DNA of 64,000 nt from Lentisphaerota bacterium (lineage in GTDB: Bacteria; Verrucomicrobiota; Lentisphaeria; Victivallales; Victivallaceae): positions 62,001 to 126,000 of the forward strand of contig SUVW01000004.1 of the NCBI GenBank assembly GCA_015061815.1, written 5' to 3'. The translations under genes were made by a program, and so were the position numbers. Positions within the stretch are counted from its first letter, which is position 1. Each line of letters begins with the position of its first letter. Positions 40,999-48,703 of the stretch are shown piece after piece. Under the pieces are notes generated by a model, which searched no databases, was not told where the DNA came from, and was given only the letters and a program-made list of their open reading frames with translations.

Positions 40999-41856
40999 AT
41001 GTTCAAATTCCGGATAATAGGTTTTATCCTGCTGATGGGATTATTGGGAGGGATATTTTTCTGGGAAGCAGGCGGCGCCTGGCTTTTTCTGGCGGCAGCT
41101 CCGGCTCTGGCGGCGGCAGCTGTGGGCGAATGCTGTGCCATGCTGAACCGTTCCGGTCGGCCGGTACTGGTATTGCCTGCCGCGCTTATGTCCTGGTTTT
41201 TAATGGTGGTGAGCCTCGGAAATATCAATAATATGTTTACCGCCGACCCCATATACCGCAATGCGATTTTTACCGGTCTGGGAGTGATCATGCTGCTGCT
41301 GGTCATTGCCGGATGCGCCAGATTGCTGCGCATGGATGAAACTCTGATGGCCAAAACCTTCAATACATTCGGTGTAGTTTTCTGTTTTGTTCCGCCATTT
41401 TTCGGATTGCTGTTAAGTTACTTTCCCGATCCGTGCGGTTACTGGCTGCTCTTTCTCTGTCTGACGACCAAAGCTACCGATACCGGCGGGTACATCGTCG
41501 GGACTCTGACCGCTAAACTGCCCGGCGGCAACCATAAAATCGCACCGCGAATCAGCCCGAAAAAATCCTGGGAAGGTCTTTTCGGCGGCTTGCTGCTCTC
41601 CTTTGCCGTCAGCTGGGCATTTTACTGCTTTGCACCTCATGCACCGTTATTCTGGTATCTGCCGGCTGCATTCATTCTTTCGCTCGGCAGTTTTTTCGGG
41701 GACTTGACCGAATCTGCCATCAAACGGATGTGCAACATCAAAGATTCCGGTTCATTTGTCCCCGGCATGGGCGGAGCGTTTGATGTCTTGGACAGTTTCA
41801 TTTACAACGGTATACTTTTCTGGATACTTTACTTTATCAAGGGGATTTTGCAATGA
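40999..41856 (+). CDS. cdsA: Phosphatidate cytidylyltransferase
   Basis: The 285-residue multi-spanning membrane protein makes CDP-diacylglycerol from phosphatidate and CTP. The C-terminal signature is recognisable: ESAIKRMCNIKDSGSFVPGMGGAFDVLDSF, close to the family pattern S-x-x-K-R-x4-K-D-x-G-x3-P-G-H-G-G-x3-D-R-x-D, with Met for the usual His and Val for Arg. TKATDTGGYIVG and SPKKSWEG are further CdsA blocks. GGAGG precedes the ATG. The stop overlaps the next start as ATGA. Confidence 0.92.
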   Translation: MFKFRIIGFILLMGLLGGIFFWEAGGAWLFLAAAPALAAAAVGECCAMLNRSGRPVLVLPAALMSWFLMVVSLGNINNMFTADPIYRNAIFTGLGVIMLLLVIAGCARLLRMDETLMAKTFNTFGVVFCFVPPFFGLLLSYFPDPCGYWLLFLCLTTKATDTGGYIVGTLTAKLPGGNHKIAPRISPKKSWEGLFGGLLLSFAVSWAFYCFAPHAPLFWYLPAAFILSLGSFFGDLTESAIKRMCNIKDSGSFVPGMGGAFDVLDSFIYNGILFWILYFIKGILQ

Positions 41857-42338
41857 AAAACAAACTTATTTCTCTGTTGCGCAGTAATGCCAGACTCTCG
41901 GCCTCCGACCTGGCCATTGAACTTAATGTCACTGAAAATGAAGTGATTTCGGCGATTTCAGAAATGGAAAAAGCCGGAGTGATTCGCGGTTATACCGCTA
42001 TTGTCACCGATCAGGCTCCCGGCAGTGAAAGCCGGGTCAAAGCTCTTATTGAAGTCAAAGTAACCCCGAACCGTGATGGAGGTTTTGACCGGGTGGCCAG
42101 GAGAATTGCCAAATTTCCGGAGGTGACCGATCTCTTTCTGCTCTCCGGCAACTATGATCTTCTGCTCACAGTTGAGGGCAATTCTCTGCAGCAGGTGGCC
42201 AGTTTCGTTTCAGACAAACTTGCCACCATTGACGGGGTGATCTCCACTGCAACGGCCTTTCAGTTGAAAAAATACAAAGAATCCGGAATGATAATGCAAA
42301 GTGATGAAGAATATGAGCGACTCAAAATCTGTTTCTGA
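41853..42338 (+). CDS. Lrp/AsnC-family transcriptional regulator
   Basis: The 161-residue protein has a short winged helix (residues about 1-50: LISLLRSNARLSASDLAIEL, VTENEVISAISEMEKAGVIRGY) and a C-terminal RAM ligand-binding domain (ALIEVKVTPNRDGGFDRVARRI, LSGNYDLLLTVEG). Such proteins sense amino acids. It overlaps cdsA by four bases and the aminotransferase by about 26 bases, and together with the latter is a frequent gene pair. Confidence 0.92.
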   Translation: MKNKLISLLRSNARLSASDLAIELNVTENEVISAISEMEKAGVIRGYTAIVTDQAPGSESRVKALIEVKVTPNRDGGFDRVARRIAKFPEVTDLFLLSGNYDLLLTVEGNSLQQVASFVSDKLATIDGVISTATAFQLKKYKESGMIMQSDEEYERLKICF

Positions 42339-43488
42339 AAAATTTATTGCACCGCACATCGCTGCGCTTCCGCCCAGCGGTATCCGGAAATTTTTTGATC
42401 TGGTCAATTCGATGGATGATGTCATCTCTCTCGGTGTCGGAGAACCGGACTTCACCACCCCCTGGACCATCCGCGAAAGCGGTATTTACTCTCTGGAACG
42501 CGGCCATACCGGCTACACCTCCAATCTCGGCACTCCGGCTTTGCGCCGGGCGATTTGCGATTATGTGGCCAAAAATTACCATGTCGGATATGACTTCAAA
42601 AGCGAATGTCTGGTAACCATCGGAGTCAGTGAAGCTCTCGATCTGGCCTTCCGGATGCTGCTCTCGCCGGGGGATGAAGTCATTTATACTGAACCGTGTT
42701 ACGTTTCGTATCCGGCGGAGATCCGCATGGCACACGGCGTTCCGGTTCCGGTAACGACCCGCTATGAAAATGAATTCGCCGTTGAGCCGGAAGATATAGA
42801 AAGAGCCATCACTCCGAAAACCCGGGCGATACTGCTCAATTTTCCCTGCAATCCGACCGGAGCAGTCATGCCGGAAAAGAAGCTCCTTGCTGTAGCTGAA
42901 TTGGCAAAAAAATATGATTTGGCAGTTCTGACCGATGAAATATATTCGGAATTGAATTATGACGGCAACCACATTTCCATTGCCAGTCTGCCGGGAATGA
43001 AAGAACGGACGATATTCCTGCATGGATTTTCCAAAGCCTTTGCCATGACCGGCTGGCGCGTTGGCTATGTGTGCGCTCCGGCCCCGATGATCGCGGCCAT
43101 GATGCGTATCCATCAATACGCCATCATGTGCGCGCCAACCGTTGCACAGGAAGCGGCTCTTGAAGCACTGATCAATGGCGGCAAAGCGATGAATGAGATG
43201 CGGGAAAGCTACCGGCAGCGGCGGGATTTTTTTGTCAAAGGACTGAATGATGCCGGATTGGATTGCCTGATGCCGCATGGAGCATTTTATGCATTTGCTT
43301 CGGTGAAAAAAACCGGAATGGATTCAACGGAATTTGCCGAAAAACTTCTGCGTGCAGAACATGTGGCAGTCGTACCGGGAGAAGCATTCGGTCCCGGCGG
43401 ACGCGGTTTCATCCGCTGCTGTTATGCCACCGGTGCCGATGAATTGCGCGAATCCCTCATCCGGATCAAACGTTTCCTCGGCAGCTGA
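42313..43488 (+). CDS. Class I/II PLP-dependent aminotransferase
   Basis: The product (391 residues) is an aspartate-aminotransferase-fold enzyme of the AspB/PatA group. Landmarks are GVGEPDF, GHTGYTSNLGTPALRRAI, NFPCNPTGA, TDEIYSEL and the PLP lysine in HGFSKAFAMTGWRVGY, with the substrate arginine in GGRGFIRCCYA. It could transaminate aspartate or aromatic keto acids, which would close the tyrosine route encoded by the convergent aro genes. Starts at 42304 or a GTG at 42301 are possible; all lie inside the lrp-type gene. It ends four bases from the end of the aroB fusion without a visible terminator. Confidence 0.92.
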   Translation: MSDSKSVSEKFIAPHIAALPPSGIRKFFDLVNSMDDVISLGVGEPDFTTPWTIRESGIYSLERGHTGYTSNLGTPALRRAICDYVAKNYHVGYDFKSECLVTIGVSEALDLAFRMLLSPGDEVIYTEPCYVSYPAEIRMAHGVPVPVTTRYENEFAVEPEDIERAITPKTRAILLNFPCNPTGAVMPEKKLLAVAELAKKYDLAVLTDEIYSELNYDGNHISIASLPGMKERTIFLHGFSKAFAMTGWRVGYVCAPAPMIAAMMRIHQYAIMCAPTVAQEAALEALINGGKAMNEMRESYRQRRDFFVKGLNDAGLDCLMPHGAFYAFASVKKTGMDSTEFAEKLLRAEHVAVVPGEAFGPGGRGFIRCCYATGADELRESLIRIKRFLGS

Positions 43489-43492
43489 TTGA

Positions 43493-46030
43493 TTACAAAC
43501 CGGCGCGGTCTTTGTAGAGCGAAAGGATGTGCAGCGCGGTACGGTAACAGGAATTTTCCGGAATCACTGCAGCATCTGCTTCAGCGGCAAAGACTTTTTT
43601 CCGCGCCTCATTCATCCGGATAAATGCCGCCGACGGGTCGGATTCTCCGGCCAGAAACGGCGGCAAACCATTCTTCAATATTCTTTCAAATGCCACGTTA
43701 TCATCGGTATTCAGCCAAACCTTGAAACCGAGCCGATGCTTCACATCGGCAGTCACGAAAGGATTGCTCAATGCTCCGCCGCCAAGCGCGATGACCTGTC
43801 TGGCCGGAGAATCAGCCAAAGCGGTCAATACGTCTGCCTCAAGTTTCCGGAAAAACTCTTCGCCTTCTTCGCGGAATATCTCCCGGACACTGCGCCCGCT
43901 GCCTTCACGCTGCACGATCATATCATCGCTGTCGGCAAAAGGAATATCAAGAATTTCCGCGATTGCCCGTCCGACACTGCTTTTGCCGGAGTGTTTGATA
44001 CCGCACAGCACGATATTTTCCGGCAAGTTGTGAACACTCTTATAGCAAAGCCAGGAATCACGCAAATCCCGTCCCTGACGGAACAATCCGGCAAAACGCT
44101 CTCCGTCACCGGCGACCAGAGCCGAACGCATCTCATCCAAACTGTTCTGAAACTCATCCAGTGCCGGTAAAATCGCCGGGGTATTGGCCAGACAGATATC
44201 TTTCCACATCTCCGGTGAACTTGAGGCGATCCGGGAAGTGTCCCTGAACCCGGTGGCACATCCGGAATAGTGCCGCCGCTGTTCCGACGGATCATCCCGG
44301 TCAAGAATACTGCGGGTCAACGCCGAAGCGATAATGTGCAGCATATGGCTGGTATGAGCGACCAGTGCATCATGAGCCGCCGGATCGATCATCCGCACGT
44401 GTGTATTGAGTTTTTCCCACAAGCCGGTGACAGCCTCAATCCCGCTGCCGGTGGAATATTTCCCCGGAACAACAAAAACGTCGGCATTTTCATACAACCC
44501 CCTGAATCCGGAACGATAACCGCTTTTTTCCGTGCCGGCCATCGGATGTCCACCAACGAAATTCAAGTCCGGGAACTCCTCTGCAGCATCCATTACCGCT
44601 GTTTTAACACTGCTGACATCGGTAAGTACCGCGCCCGGTTTCAATTGATCATGATACTGCCGGATAAATTTTACCGTCACCGGTATCGGCAGACACAAAA
44701 CCACTATATCCGCACTGCGGAACGCCTCGGATACATCCCGGTAGATCCTCTCGGCCGCACCGGATTCCATCATCATCCGGCTGCCTTCCGGGTCGCGGTT
44801 CCAAACTCCGACCCGGTAATGGCGGTGGTCCAGACTCATGGCCAGTGAACTGCCAAGCAATCCCAACCCGACAACAGCTGCTTCCGGACGTTCATCAGCC
44901 GGGACGCCGGAATTTTCCGGGAACCGCCAGGCATAATAATCTGTCAGCAATTCCGCAGTTTTCCCGGGATCAAGATCCACCGTTTTCACCTTGCCATCGG
45001 CCAGAGGCAAAACTGCGCGGAATCTGCCGTCGCCATTTTTTTTGTCACCTTTCATCAATTCAACGATCCGGACAACATCATGTTTCACCGCCGACAGCGG
45101 AAATTTCCCCGGCGCGATACCGGCGCAAGTCAGCAAATCATACTGTCTGGACTGCAGTTTTTCATCGCACAATCCCAACTTCACCGCCGTAAATGCCGCC
45201 ATATCCATCCCGACCGCGACCGCTTCACCGTGAGTCAGCCGGAAACGGGAAAGATGTTCTATAGCGTGCCCGAAAGTGTGTCCGTAATTGAGGAATACCC
45301 TGCCGCTGTCACCGGATTCTTTTTCATCAGCCGAAACCACCATCGCCTTTATCTCACAGGAACGCTTCACCGCCCGGAGCAAAAATGCTTTATCCGACAA
45401 TATATCTGACGGCATTTCATTTATAAGAGTACGGACAAATCCGGCATCCCGGATCATCGCAGTTTTGATGATCTCCGCCATACCGCTGCCAAGTTCCCGT
45501 GCCGGCAGAGTGTCGAGCAATCCGCAATCGATGACCACCAGAGAAGGTTGATGGAATGCCCCGACCAGATTTTTCCCGTGTACCGTATCAACAGCCGTTT
45601 TACCGCCGACGGAAGAATCCACCATCGCCAGAAGCGAGGTCGGGATCTGAATAAAATCCACTCCACGCATAAACATCGCAGCTGCAAATCCGGTCAAATC
45701 CCCGGTCACACCGCCGCCGAGGGCGGCAAAAAGGGCATTGCGCCCCAATTTGAGCGAACTGGCGTAACCGCACAGTTTCATGGCATTATCCATATTTTTG
45801 GATGCTTCTCCGGCGGGTAAGACCCAGGAATATACGGTTTTACCGCTTTTTTCCATCGCCGCTGCAACGCGCGGCAAATACTGCGCGGTATTGCTGTCTG
45901 CGGTGATCAATACATTTTTTTGCGGCAAAGCGGAAAAAGCCTCCAGCACCGCCGGTGAATCCACTGCACTGAAAATTATATCGTAACTGCGCTTACCCAG
46001 TTCCACTCTGACTCGGGGTACCTCTTTCAT
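43493..46030 (-). CDS. Trifunctional fusion: 3-dehydroquinate synthase, prephenate dehydrogenase, shikimate kinase (AroB-TyrA-AroK)
   Basis: One 845-residue frame contains three enzymes. Residues 1-370 are AroB: GGGVTGDLTGF, the DSSVGGKT NAD site and zinc ligands Glu186, His251 and His267. Residues 383-665 are TyrA: Rossmann VVGLGLLGSS, GGHPMAGTEKSG with His495, and HTSHMLH. Residues 670-845 are AroK: P-loop GIKHSGKSS (677-685), ADSDD, EEFFRKLE and ALGGGAL; the LID segment reads GLPPFL where RPLL is usual, so its arginine seems absent. The chain would catalyse steps 2 and 5 of the shikimate route plus oxidation of prephenate. AGGA stands six bases before the ATG, two bases after the aroA stop. 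No stop or frameshift separates the parts. Confidence 0.95.
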   Translation of the reverse strand: MKEVPRVRVELGKRSYDIIFSAVDSPAVLEAFSALPQKNVLITADSNTAQYLPRVAAAMEKSGKTVYSWVLPAGEASKNMDNAMKLCGYASSLKLGRNALFAALGGGVTGDLTGFAAAMFMRGVDFIQIPTSLLAMVDSSVGGKTAVDTVHGKNLVGAFHQPSLVVIDCGLLDTLPARELGSGMAEIIKTAMIRDAGFVRTLINEMPSDILSDKAFLLRAVKRSCEIKAMVVSADEKESGDSGRVFLNYGHTFGHAIEHLSRFRLTHGEAVAVGMDMAAFTAVKLGLCDEKLQSRQYDLLTCAGIAPGKFPLSAVKHDVVRIVELMKGDKKNGDGRFRAVLPLADGKVKTVDLDPGKTAELLTDYYAWRFPENSGVPADERPEAAVVGLGLLGSSLAMSLDHRHYRVGVWNRDPEGSRMMMESGAAERIYRDVSEAFRSADIVVLCLPIPVTVKFIRQYHDQLKPGAVLTDVSSVKTAVMDAAEEFPDLNFVGGHPMAGTEKSGYRSGFRGLYENADVFVVPGKYSTGSGIEAVTGLWEKLNTHVRMIDPAAHDALVAHTSHMLHIIASALTRSILDRDDPSEQRRHYSGCATGFRDTSRIASSSPEMWKDICLANTPAILPALDEFQNSLDEMRSALVAGDGERFAGLFRQGRDLRDSWLCYKSVHNLPENIVLCGIKHSGKSSVGRAIAEILDIPFADSDDMIVQREGSGRSVREIFREEGEEFFRKLEADVLTALADSPARQVIALGGGALSNPFVTADVKHRLGFKVWLNTDDNVAFERILKNGLPPFLAGESDPSAAFIRMNEARKKVFAAEADAAVIPENSCYRTALHILSLYKDRAGL

Positions 46031-46032
46031 CT

Positions 46033-47310
46033 TCAATCCTGCAACTCCCTGATTACTGCGCCAAGATCACGGAAATCGGCGGCAAATTCCGGATAAGTAA
46101 CTTCACAGGCACTGCCGTCGGCGATCGTAACTGCACCGTCAGCCCCCAGAGCCGCAACCGTTAACGCCATAGCAATCCGGTGATCGTGATAACTCTCCAC
46201 TTCAGCTCCATGCAGCTGTCTGCCGCCGCGAATGACCAACCCATCCGGCAATTCGGTGATATCAGCTCCCATTTTCTGCAATTCACAGCTCATACAGGCG
46301 ATCCGGTCACACTCTTTAAGCCGTGCTTGCGGAACATTGATCAGACGGGTGACGCCTTCGGCGAAGCAACCCAAAACCGCCATTACCGGCAATGCATCGG
46401 GAGTGGCATTGAGATCAAATGTCCCTCCGGTCAGACGGGATTTTTTCACCACGACCTCTCCATCGGCCATATAAATATCCCCATTCATCGCCCGGACATA
46501 ATCAAAAACCCGCTTATCTCCCTGCAGATCATCGAAATCCAAATTTGCGATCCTCACCTCTTTTCCCGCCACCACTCCGGCACCAAGCGGGAATGCCGCT
46601 GTTGAAAAATCTGCCGGGATCACCCGGGAAAAGGGTTTGTACTCCTGATTTCCGGGAATTTCATAATACAGCATATTTTCTGCCGGATAAACTGTTATTC
46701 CGCACCGGTCAAGCCAATCCAGAGTGATTTTCACATAATCAGCTTCATTGAGAAAATCCAGTTCCAGCACCGAATTTTGTTGAGCCAGAGGCAGAGCCAT
46801 GAGCAATGCTGTAAGAAACTGGCTGGTCGTCCCGTCAACTTTGGTCCGTCCGCCGGTCAACGGCCCGGAAACACTCAAAGGAGCAAAGCCGTTGCAACTG
46901 CGGCAATCAGCTCCCAAATCAGCAAGTGCATCGAGCAATCCCTGCATGATCCGGGTACGCAAAGATGCATCCCCGTCAAAACTGATTTCTCCCCGTCCCA
47001 GAGCTGCCGCAGCGGTGATTATCCGCATCGTTGTACCGGAATTCCCCAGATCCACCGGCAATTCCGGAGAAGCAAAATCCTTTCCGCATCCGGAAATTTT
47101 CCACACCTCACGGGATTCATCGACTTTCGCTCCCAAAGCGGCTGCCGCCGACAGCGCACTGCGGGTATCAGCGGAATACAATGGAGCGTATATTTCCGAA
47201 CACCCTCTGCTCAACAATCCGGCGATCACCGCCCGGATCGTATGACTTTTGGAACCGGGGACTGCTATGCGCCCGGATAACTCATTTCCCGGAATTATCT
47301 GCCAATCCAT
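46033..47310 (-). CDS. aroA: 3-Phosphoshikimate 1-carboxyvinyltransferase (EPSP synthase)
   Basis: The 425-residue enzyme joins shikimate 3-phosphate and phosphoenolpyruvate. It has PGSKSHTIRAV at the N-terminus, LGNSGTTMRI (Ser where Ala is usual in LGNAGT), VDGTTSQFLTALL, the DFSTAAFPLGA centre, RLKECDRI and HDHRIAMAL. The ATG at 47310 is preceded by GGAGAG eight bases upstream; a GTG at 47319 overlaps the chorismate mutase stop. It lies between chorismate mutase and the AroB fusion. Confidence 0.96.
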   Translation of the reverse strand: MDWQIIPGNELSGRIAVPGSKSHTIRAVIAGLLSRGCSEIYAPLYSADTRSALSAAAALGAKVDESREVWKISGCGKDFASPELPVDLGNSGTTMRIITAAAALGRGEISFDGDASLRTRIMQGLLDALADLGADCRSCNGFAPLSVSGPLTGGRTKVDGTTSQFLTALLMALPLAQQNSVLELDFLNEADYVKITLDWLDRCGITVYPAENMLYYEIPGNQEYKPFSRVIPADFSTAAFPLGAGVVAGKEVRIANLDFDDLQGDKRVFDYVRAMNGDIYMADGEVVVKKSRLTGGTFDLNATPDALPVMAVLGCFAEGVTRLINVPQARLKECDRIACMSCELQKMGADITELPDGLVIRGGRQLHGAEVESYHDHRIAMALTVAALGADGAVTIADGSACEVTYPEFAADFRDLGAVIRELQD

Positions 47311-47315
47311 GCTGT

Positions 47316-47600
47316 TCACTCTCCCGACTGCTTTTTCAAACGTTCCTCTCTCCGGCGACTGGCCTCAAAAACCGCCTCAAAGACCGCTTTGATTTCCGGG
47401 GCGAACTCCTCTCCGGCCAAAGCGGTGACTTTTTTCAAAATCGCCTCTTCTCTTGCCGGAACGAAGATCGGCTGATCATTGGCCTTTTTCCATTCGCCGA
47501 CGATATCCACCTGCTTCATTCTCTCCACCAGCAAAGCAGTCAACTCTCCATTTATCCGGTCGATCTCCTGCCGGGCCCGGTCAATTTGCGAAGTATCCAT
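47316..47600 (-). CDS. Chorismate mutase, AroQ type
   Basis: The 94-residue helical protein matches AroQ-type mutases that convert chorismate to prephenate: ARQEIDRINGELTALLVERM, the VGEWKKAN helix and VPAREEAILKKV. Catalytic arginines and the lysine at about 38-39 are present. It stands alone rather than fused to TyrA or PheA, although TyrA itself is fused elsewhere in the same operon. It starts 11 bases after the DAHP synthase gene. Confidence 0.92.
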   Translation of the reverse strand: MDTSQIDRARQEIDRINGELTALLVERMKQVDIVGEWKKANDQPIFVPAREEAILKKVTALAGEEFAPEIKAVFEAVFEASRRREERLKKQSGE

Positions 47601-47611
47601 GATACCAACCT

Positions 47612-48613
47612 TTATTCCAATGCGCTCTTCAATTTTTCAATACGCCGGACCAGTTGCCGGAATTGTTCCGGAGTAAGACTTTGCATGCCGTCACATTTGG
47701 CGCAGGCCGGATTGTTATGCACTTCGATGATAAGTCCGTCAGCTCCCGCCGCCACCGCCGCCAGCGACAACGGGGCAACAAATTCCGCCACGCCAACTGC
47801 ATGACTGGGATCGACGATCACCGGCAGATGGGATAATTTTTTCAGCACCGGGACAGCGGAAATATCCAGAGTATTGCGGGTGTAAGTTTCAAAGGTGCGC
47901 ACACCGCGTTCACAGAGGATGACATTCTCATTACCGGAAGCCATGATGTATTCCGCGCTCATAAGCAGCTCCTGATAGGTGTTGGCCAGACCGCGTTTCA
48001 ACAGGATCGGTTTTCCGGAGTGACCGAGCTGCTTGAGCAATTCAAAATTCTGCATATTGCGTGCGCCGACCTGAATAACGTCCACATCATCAAAAAGTTC
48101 CAGCTGCGACAGATCCATGATCTCCGTCACGATCGGCAACCCGGTATCTTTTTTCGCTTCCAGAAGCAGTTTTATCCCCTCTTCACGCAAACCCTGAAAT
48201 GCGTAAGGAGAGGTGCGCGGTTTGAAAGCTCCGCCGCGCAGAAGTTTCGCTCCGGAAGCCTTGACGCTCCGCGCCACCGTGATGATCTGTTCCTCACTTT
48301 CCACTGAACAAGGTCCGGCAATGACCGTCATCCCCCCGCCGCCGATCACAGCATCTTTCACCTTGATCTGCGTATCCAGCGGATGGAATTTGCGGTTGGC
48401 GTTTTTGAAAGGCTCCTGAATGCGTTTGACATCATCCACACACTCCAGCATTTTTATCTGATCGATATCCACCTTGCCGGTATCACCGATCAAACCAAGT
48501 ACCGTATGCTGACTTCCCTGGGAAATGTGGACATCAAAACCGAACGTTTTCAGATTGGCCACCAGCTTTTCCACTGCTGCTTGAGCAGTGTTTTCTCTCA
48601 ATATGACTATCAT
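47612..48613 (-). CDS. 3-Deoxy-7-phosphoheptulonate synthase (type I-beta)
   Basis: The 333-residue enzyme performs the first step of the shikimate pathway. An N-terminal ferredoxin-like regulatory domain (about 1-70, MIVILRENTAQ onward), as in the Thermotoga enzyme, precedes the barrel: VIAGPCSVESEEQ, KLLRGGAFKPRTSPYAFQG, PIVTEIMD, KRGLANT and DPSHAVG. In the Thermotoga enzyme the added domain gives inhibition by tyrosine or phenylalanine. It is the first gene of the aro operon, with promoter at 48675. Confidence 0.95.
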   Translation of the reverse strand: MIVILRENTAQAAVEKLVANLKTFGFDVHISQGSQHTVLGLIGDTGKVDIDQIKMLECVDDVKRIQEPFKNANRKFHPLDTQIKVKDAVIGGGGMTVIAGPCSVESEEQIITVARSVKASGAKLLRGGAFKPRTSPYAFQGLREEGIKLLLEAKKDTGLPIVTEIMDLSQLELFDDVDVIQVGARNMQNFELLKQLGHSGKPILLKRGLANTYQELLMSAEYIMASGNENVILCERGVRTFETYTRNTLDISAVPVLKKLSHLPVIVDPSHAVGVAEFVAPLSLAAVAAGADGLIIEVHNNPACAKCDGMQSLTPEQFRQLVRRIEKLKSALE

Positions 48614-48674: not shown

Positions 48675-48703
48675 AAGATACTGCTGAAAATGGTCTTTGT
48701 CAA
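48675..48703 (-). promoter_or_regulatory. Promoter of the aromatic amino acid operon
   Basis: TTGACA (48698-48703 on the minus strand), 17 bases, TATCTT (48675-48680), 62 bases before the ATG. I see no leader peptide or T-box-like structure in between. Confidence 0.75.

Follow-up and report, generated by a model that had tools for sequence, protein, structure and literature searches.

A putative AroB-TyrA-AroK trifunctional enzyme, probably assembled by two successive gene fusions in a single genus of gut Lentisphaeria

Whether a bacterium may depend on a single polypeptide for 3-dehydroquinate (DHQ) synthase (AroB), prephenate/arogenate dehydrogenase (TyrA) and shikimate kinase (AroK), and how such a polypeptide could have arisen, are the questions raised by a locus of a Lentisphaerota bacterium (GCA_015061815.1, contig SUVW01000004.1, positions 62,001-126,000). 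The window, to which the positions given below refer, is this whole stretch of 64,000 nucleotides. The locus consists of a single 845-codon open frame that is read on the minus strand, from an ATG at 46030 to a stop at 43493; translation of 43493-46030 on the plus strand meets stops. An earlier note, made from the letters alone and giving no strand, had described a chain of 845 residues with three complete domains in the order AroB, TyrA, AroK, and this is what Pfam recovers in the one minus-strand frame: DHQ_synthase at residues 70-180, DHQS_C at 183-332, PDH_N at 399-545, PDH_C at 549-652 and SKI at 681-823, all far above the cut-offs. A chance origin of the frame is ruled out by its size and by the three domain matches, each at E 1e-22 or better. 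The gene and its parts are as follows:

43493..46030, minus strand: AroB-TyrA-AroK fusion gene, 845 aa, AGGA six bases before the ATG start
44936..46030, minus strand: AroB (3-dehydroquinate synthase) domain, aa 1-365, PF01761 E 1.6e-43, PF24621 E 1.4e-36
44888..44935, minus strand: AroB/TyrA linker, aa 366-381, variable, lower model confidence (about 78)
44039..44887, minus strand: TyrA (prephenate/arogenate dehydrogenase) domain, aa 382-664, PF02153 E 4e-27, PF20463 E 9e-23
44021..44038, minus strand: TyrA/AroK junction, aa 665-670, directly after the ...SWLCYK end
43496..44020, minus strand: AroK (shikimate kinase) domain, aa 671-845, PF01202 E 1.3e-24

Comparison with known enzymes agrees with these assignments: the AroB domain scores above the TIGR01357 cut-off and matches structure 3zok at E 3e-77, the TyrA domain matches structure 3b1f at E 3e-46, and the AroK domain matches the shikimate kinase of M. 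tuberculosis at E 4e-16. Among the NCBIfam models only that of AroB passes its cut-off, and none passes for the AroB-TyrA-AroK combination; an automatic label could therefore say DHQ synthase alone, and the bacteria would then seem unable to make tyrosine or chorismate. The best-hit annotation problem has been described in general (PMC7311316).

Twelve other sequences are full-length homologues of the frame, and the alignment of all 13 chains substantiates what had been claimed of the AroB zinc ligands, the TyrA Rossmann motif and the AroK P-loop, which are present and invariant. AroB has both of its Pfam domains and keeps the zinc-ligand positions (E186, H251, H267) and the lysine (K144). TyrA combines PDH_N and PDH_C with the Rossmann GxGxxG, the HPMAG histidine and the GFRDxSR arginine, and G388-x-G390-xx-G393, H495 and R596 do not vary. 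In the kinase the P-loop, DxD, FRxxE and GGG motifs and the substrate arginines are found, with the P-loop to K683, D700/D702, R728, G750-752 and R810 invariant. The exception is the lid arginine of the RPLL motif, as the chain reads LPPFL where M. tuberculosis has VRPLL and Pro790 stands at the position of Arg117. The same proline is common to the standalone AroK of the order, so its presence here does not point to decay of the fusion. The AroK proteins of the order, the domain at 43496-44020 among them, show a lid of the form G-x-P-x-[FY]-[LV] vs RPLL in characterised enzymes, and the lid arginine of shikimate kinase seems to have been replaced throughout this lineage. We infer that the domain has kinase activity because the lid variant is conserved across the order and no other SKI protein accompanies it. 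At the end of the second Rossmann strand of TyrA, Asn-Arg is found where NAD-specific enzymes carry Asp, a residue that marks NAD specificity at this position (PMC1173090); the predicted cofactor preference leans towards NADP.

An AlphaFold2 model built on a 50-row alignment reached a mean pLDDT of 94 and a pTM of 0.83, with no segment below 50 and a weaker spot (about 78) near residues 371-380, between AroB and TyrA. In the model the last TyrA helix (643-664) runs into the short AroK junction. This geometry, with TyrA lying between the other two domains, would be in keeping with a regulatory coupling in which tyrosine or hydroxyphenylpyruvate acting at TyrA would alter AroB or AroK and place early steps under end-product control, and TyrA enzymes are indeed inhibited by end products (PMC1173090). 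Pfam found no ACT or other regulatory domain in the fusion, however, and such a coupling is regarded as distinctly unlikely.

Since every source is a metagenome assembly, it could be argued that three genes were joined artefactually during sequencing or assembly. The named records are Lentisphaeria from different projects, a number of them sampled from the colon of sheep, yak and roe deer, and against an artefact the same frame is found uninterrupted on single contigs in 12 species (G000, G001, G003, G004, G008, G010, G012, G015, G021, G025, G028 and G033), the others at 63-81% identity to the frame of the window, and across those different projects and hosts. In a thirteenth species (G017) the gene is split at a contig break whose two ends overlap by exactly 141 bases. 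Purifying selection acts on all three domains, dN/dS lying between 0.03 and 0.19 in each, with synonymous sites near saturation in some pairs; double-fusion intermediates, described below, exist as well. An artefact is thus refuted by repeated occurrence in separate assemblies, its probability being negligible, and the domains are separated neither by a frameshift nor by a hidden stop, which the earlier note had named as a possible refutation.

The gene could also yield separate enzymes, if translation started internally or the chain were cut by proteases. The sequence varies in the AroB/TyrA linker, which is also modelled with less confidence, the stretch 346-383 around it being only 48% identical, and processing would be invisible in the sequence. 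Yet in the 13 sequences neither junction has a conserved start codon with a ribosome-binding site, and the TyrA/AroK junction belongs to the best conserved regions of the chain (83% identity). With no second copies in the genome, separate products are very improbable, and the chain would stay whole.

The fusion closes an operon whose other members are:

48675..48703, minus strand: putative sigma-70-like promoter, TTGACA-17-TATCTT, upstream of the DAHP synthase gene, by consensus match only
47612..48613, minus strand: DAHP synthase, first gene of the operon, PF00793 E 3e-78, NF006421 above cut-off
47316..47600, minus strand: chorismate mutase (AroQ type), PF01817 E 5.5e-20, 4-base overlap with aroA
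46033..47319, minus strand: aroA (EPSP synthase), upstream of the fusion, PF00275 E 1e-102, TIGR01356 above cut-off

The order is DAHP synthase, chorismate mutase, AroA and fusion, with spacings of 11 bases, -4 bases (overlap) and 2 bases. The order DAHP synthase-(chorismate mutase)-AroA-fusion recurs in ten related contigs, of which some reach a contig end and some are without the mutase. That the operon supplies DAHP synthase, chorismate mutase and AroA thus holds here and in most species with the triple fusion, G015 and G025 (L032, L042) showing no operon gene beside the fusion on the available flanking sequence. The wider proposal that a single transcript spans the pathway from entry through the middle to the exit stands for the operon genes as described but fails for dehydroquinase, AroE and AroC, which lie on other contigs. 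An aminotransferase gene ends 4 bases before the stop of the fusion, and as it lies on the opposite strand and converges on the fusion, it stands outside the operon. The plus-strand segment at 41853-43488 holds an Lrp/AsnC-type regulator and this class I aminotransferase, an arrangement that is the same in the nearest relative (L031); the pair may be an aromatic aminotransferase and the gene that regulates it.

A metabolic neighbour of each domain is encoded in the operon (DAHP synthase for AroB, AroA for AroK, chorismate mutase for TyrA). It might be supposed from this that the fusion forms a scaffold, or metabolon, that binds the three operon enzymes and passes intermediates between neighbours. 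The AroB and TyrA families are dimeric, so that the chain could build larger complexes, and the fusion is stable across a clade. The fused steps are nevertheless non-consecutive, dehydroquinase, AroE and AroC are made from elsewhere in the genome, the mutase has gone from the operon in some species, two species have no visible operon gene beside the fusion, and the AroB-TyrA linker varies in sequence; a metabolon therefore seems unlikely.

The genome of the window (2.5 Mb, 94% complete) gave one match in a whole-protein search. Family searches returned one PDH_N match, one DHQS_C match and one SKI match among the matches listed, and neither the protein search nor these SKI, PDH_N and DHQS_C searches revealed a second AroB, TyrA or AroK. 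AroC, AroE, a type II dehydroquinase and PheA occur once each, on other contigs. With no second copies and these four enzymes present elsewhere, the fusion most likely supplies all three activities of the cell, and the pathway would thus be complete and dependent on it, provided that no unrelated shikimate kinase (GHMP-type, non-homologous) exists. In a separate observation, genomes of several families in the same order (among them G037, G040, G044, G045, G052 and G057) gave no SKI-family match at E 1e-10; they are largely complete, and some carry AroB and TyrA. They may have a divergent or non-homologous shikimate kinase, or may have lost the enzyme.

The same three-domain order thus occurs in 13 species of one Lentisphaeria genus. 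The scan of the genome collection used peptide patterns and covered close relatives only; given that scope, the order may also have originated independently in a distant phylum. Apart from these species, the 78 genomes of the family have the triple fusion on only two contigs, from other genera (G035 and G092), and both look like contamination: their AroB nests inside the triple-fusion clade, the G035 contig is only 3.4 kb long, and G092 also carries its own three separate genes. They were rejected as signs of a wider spread. Elsewhere in the phylum, two long frames among the matches listed in an SKI scan are fusions other than TyrA-AroK, from other families: a shikimate kinase with an NAD-dependent epimerase-like domain (L118, 2226-3659, minus strand, 477 aa) and one with an amidohydrolase/dihydroorotase-like domain (L119, 2339-4168, minus strand, 609 aa).

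Three further species of the genus (G018, G029 and G031; L060-L062) have a TyrA-AroK double fusion of 474-520 aa, with PDH_N, PDH_C and SKI domains, and a separate AroB gene on another contig, while in other members AroB, TyrA and AroK are three separate genes. The rpoB tree covers 24 genomes, its rows selected by similarity, and gives 100/100 support each to the triple clade, the double clade and their sister grouping. In the TyrA tree triple and double fusions form one clade (SH-aLRT 97). The triple AroB form one clade (100) in the AroB tree, where a sister position to the AroB of the double-fusion species is without support and their joining is not rejected (p-AU 0.11). The AroK tree is poorly resolved, and the grouping of triple and double is again not rejected (p-AU 0.70). 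Standalone TyrA ends in ...LRDSWLxYK plus a few residues, and the same end continues into AroK in both fusion types. As the sister clade has the double fusion with a separate AroB and other relatives have three genes, TyrA and AroK were probably joined first and AroB added later. Two independent TyrA-AroK joins, one in each sister clade, are a less probable history that the poorly resolved AroK tree still allows.

Taken together, the data very probably describe a trifunctional enzyme that is the sole source of its activities and that arose by a two-step fusion within one Lentisphaeria genus, followed by vertical inheritance. According to this proposal, all three domains would be active, and one chain would carry out step 2 (DHQ synthase), step 5 (shikimate kinase) and the exit to tyrosine (prephenate/arogenate dehydrogenase) as the only provider of these functions in the cell. 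Two successive end-to-start gene fusions would account for it: the first, in the ancestor shared by the 16 sampled species, united TyrA and AroK, and the second, in the ancestor of a subset of 13, added AroB at the N-terminal side. The benefit may be fixed 1:1:1 co-production from one operon; alternatively, a near-neutral fusion may have been locked in after loss of the separate copies. Substrate channelling within the chain is unlikely because the three reactions do not follow one another in the pathway, and a locked-in co-expression fusion is the most economical reading. A bolder idea, and an improbable one, is that TyrA physically couples the tyrosine exit to two upstream shikimate steps, through allosteric feedback by tyrosine or hydroxyphenylpyruvate or through recruitment of the other operon enzymes; if it were true, the chain would be a bacterial alternative to eukaryotic AROM built from non-consecutive enzymes. 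For the trifunctional fusion, the living series of three separate genes, TyrA-AroK with AroB apart, and the triple chain offers a comparison for why enzymes of non-adjacent steps fuse.

The fear that the arrangement might already be well described was not borne out: no description of AroB-TyrA-AroK, nor of a TyrA-AroK double fusion, was found in the open-access literature searched, although such absence is not proof. The triple chain is a domain combination new to that literature and a real architecture of known enzymes that is apparently undescribed. Several partial likenesses exist. TyrA is a popular fusion partner, known in AroQ-TyrA, TyrA-AroA (named TyrA-AroF), HisHb-TyrA and TyrA-AroQ-PheA-ACT (PMC1173090); these fusions, as here, unite TyrA with another aromatic-pathway enzyme, but none with AroB or AroK, and the window chain, without an EPSP synthase domain, falls outside the TyrA-AroA model PRK14806 (206 bits against a cut-off of 902). 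Archaeal and bacterial proteins that fuse AroE with AroK or AroD with AroE (PMC11237513) are also prokaryotic shikimate-pathway fusions, but they have other partners and combine adjacent steps. AroK-AroB or AroL-AroB proteins (PRK14021, PRK13951), such as the bifunctional AroL-AroB of Herbaspirillum (HSERO_RS20920; PMC7311316), likewise combine shikimate kinase with DHQ synthase in a single polypeptide; in those proteins the kinase is N-terminal and directly precedes AroB, whereas here AroB leads, TyrA intervenes and the kinase is last, and with this reversed domain order the chain does not belong to either model (246 and 187 bits against cut-offs of 565 and 560). The closest eukaryotic parallel is AROM (Aro1), likewise a single polypeptide that begins with DHQ synthase and has shikimate kinase later in its sequence, and in Foldseek, where the model matches DHQ synthases at a TM of about 0.9 over the target, AROM chains (6hqv) are the top matches. 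A shared fusion origin is not suggested: AROM unites AroB, AroA, AroK, AroD and AroE for steps 2-6, whereas the chain of the window has AroB, TyrA and AroK domains only, leaves AroA to a separate neighbouring gene, lacks AroD and AroE, and includes instead the post-chorismate enzyme TyrA.
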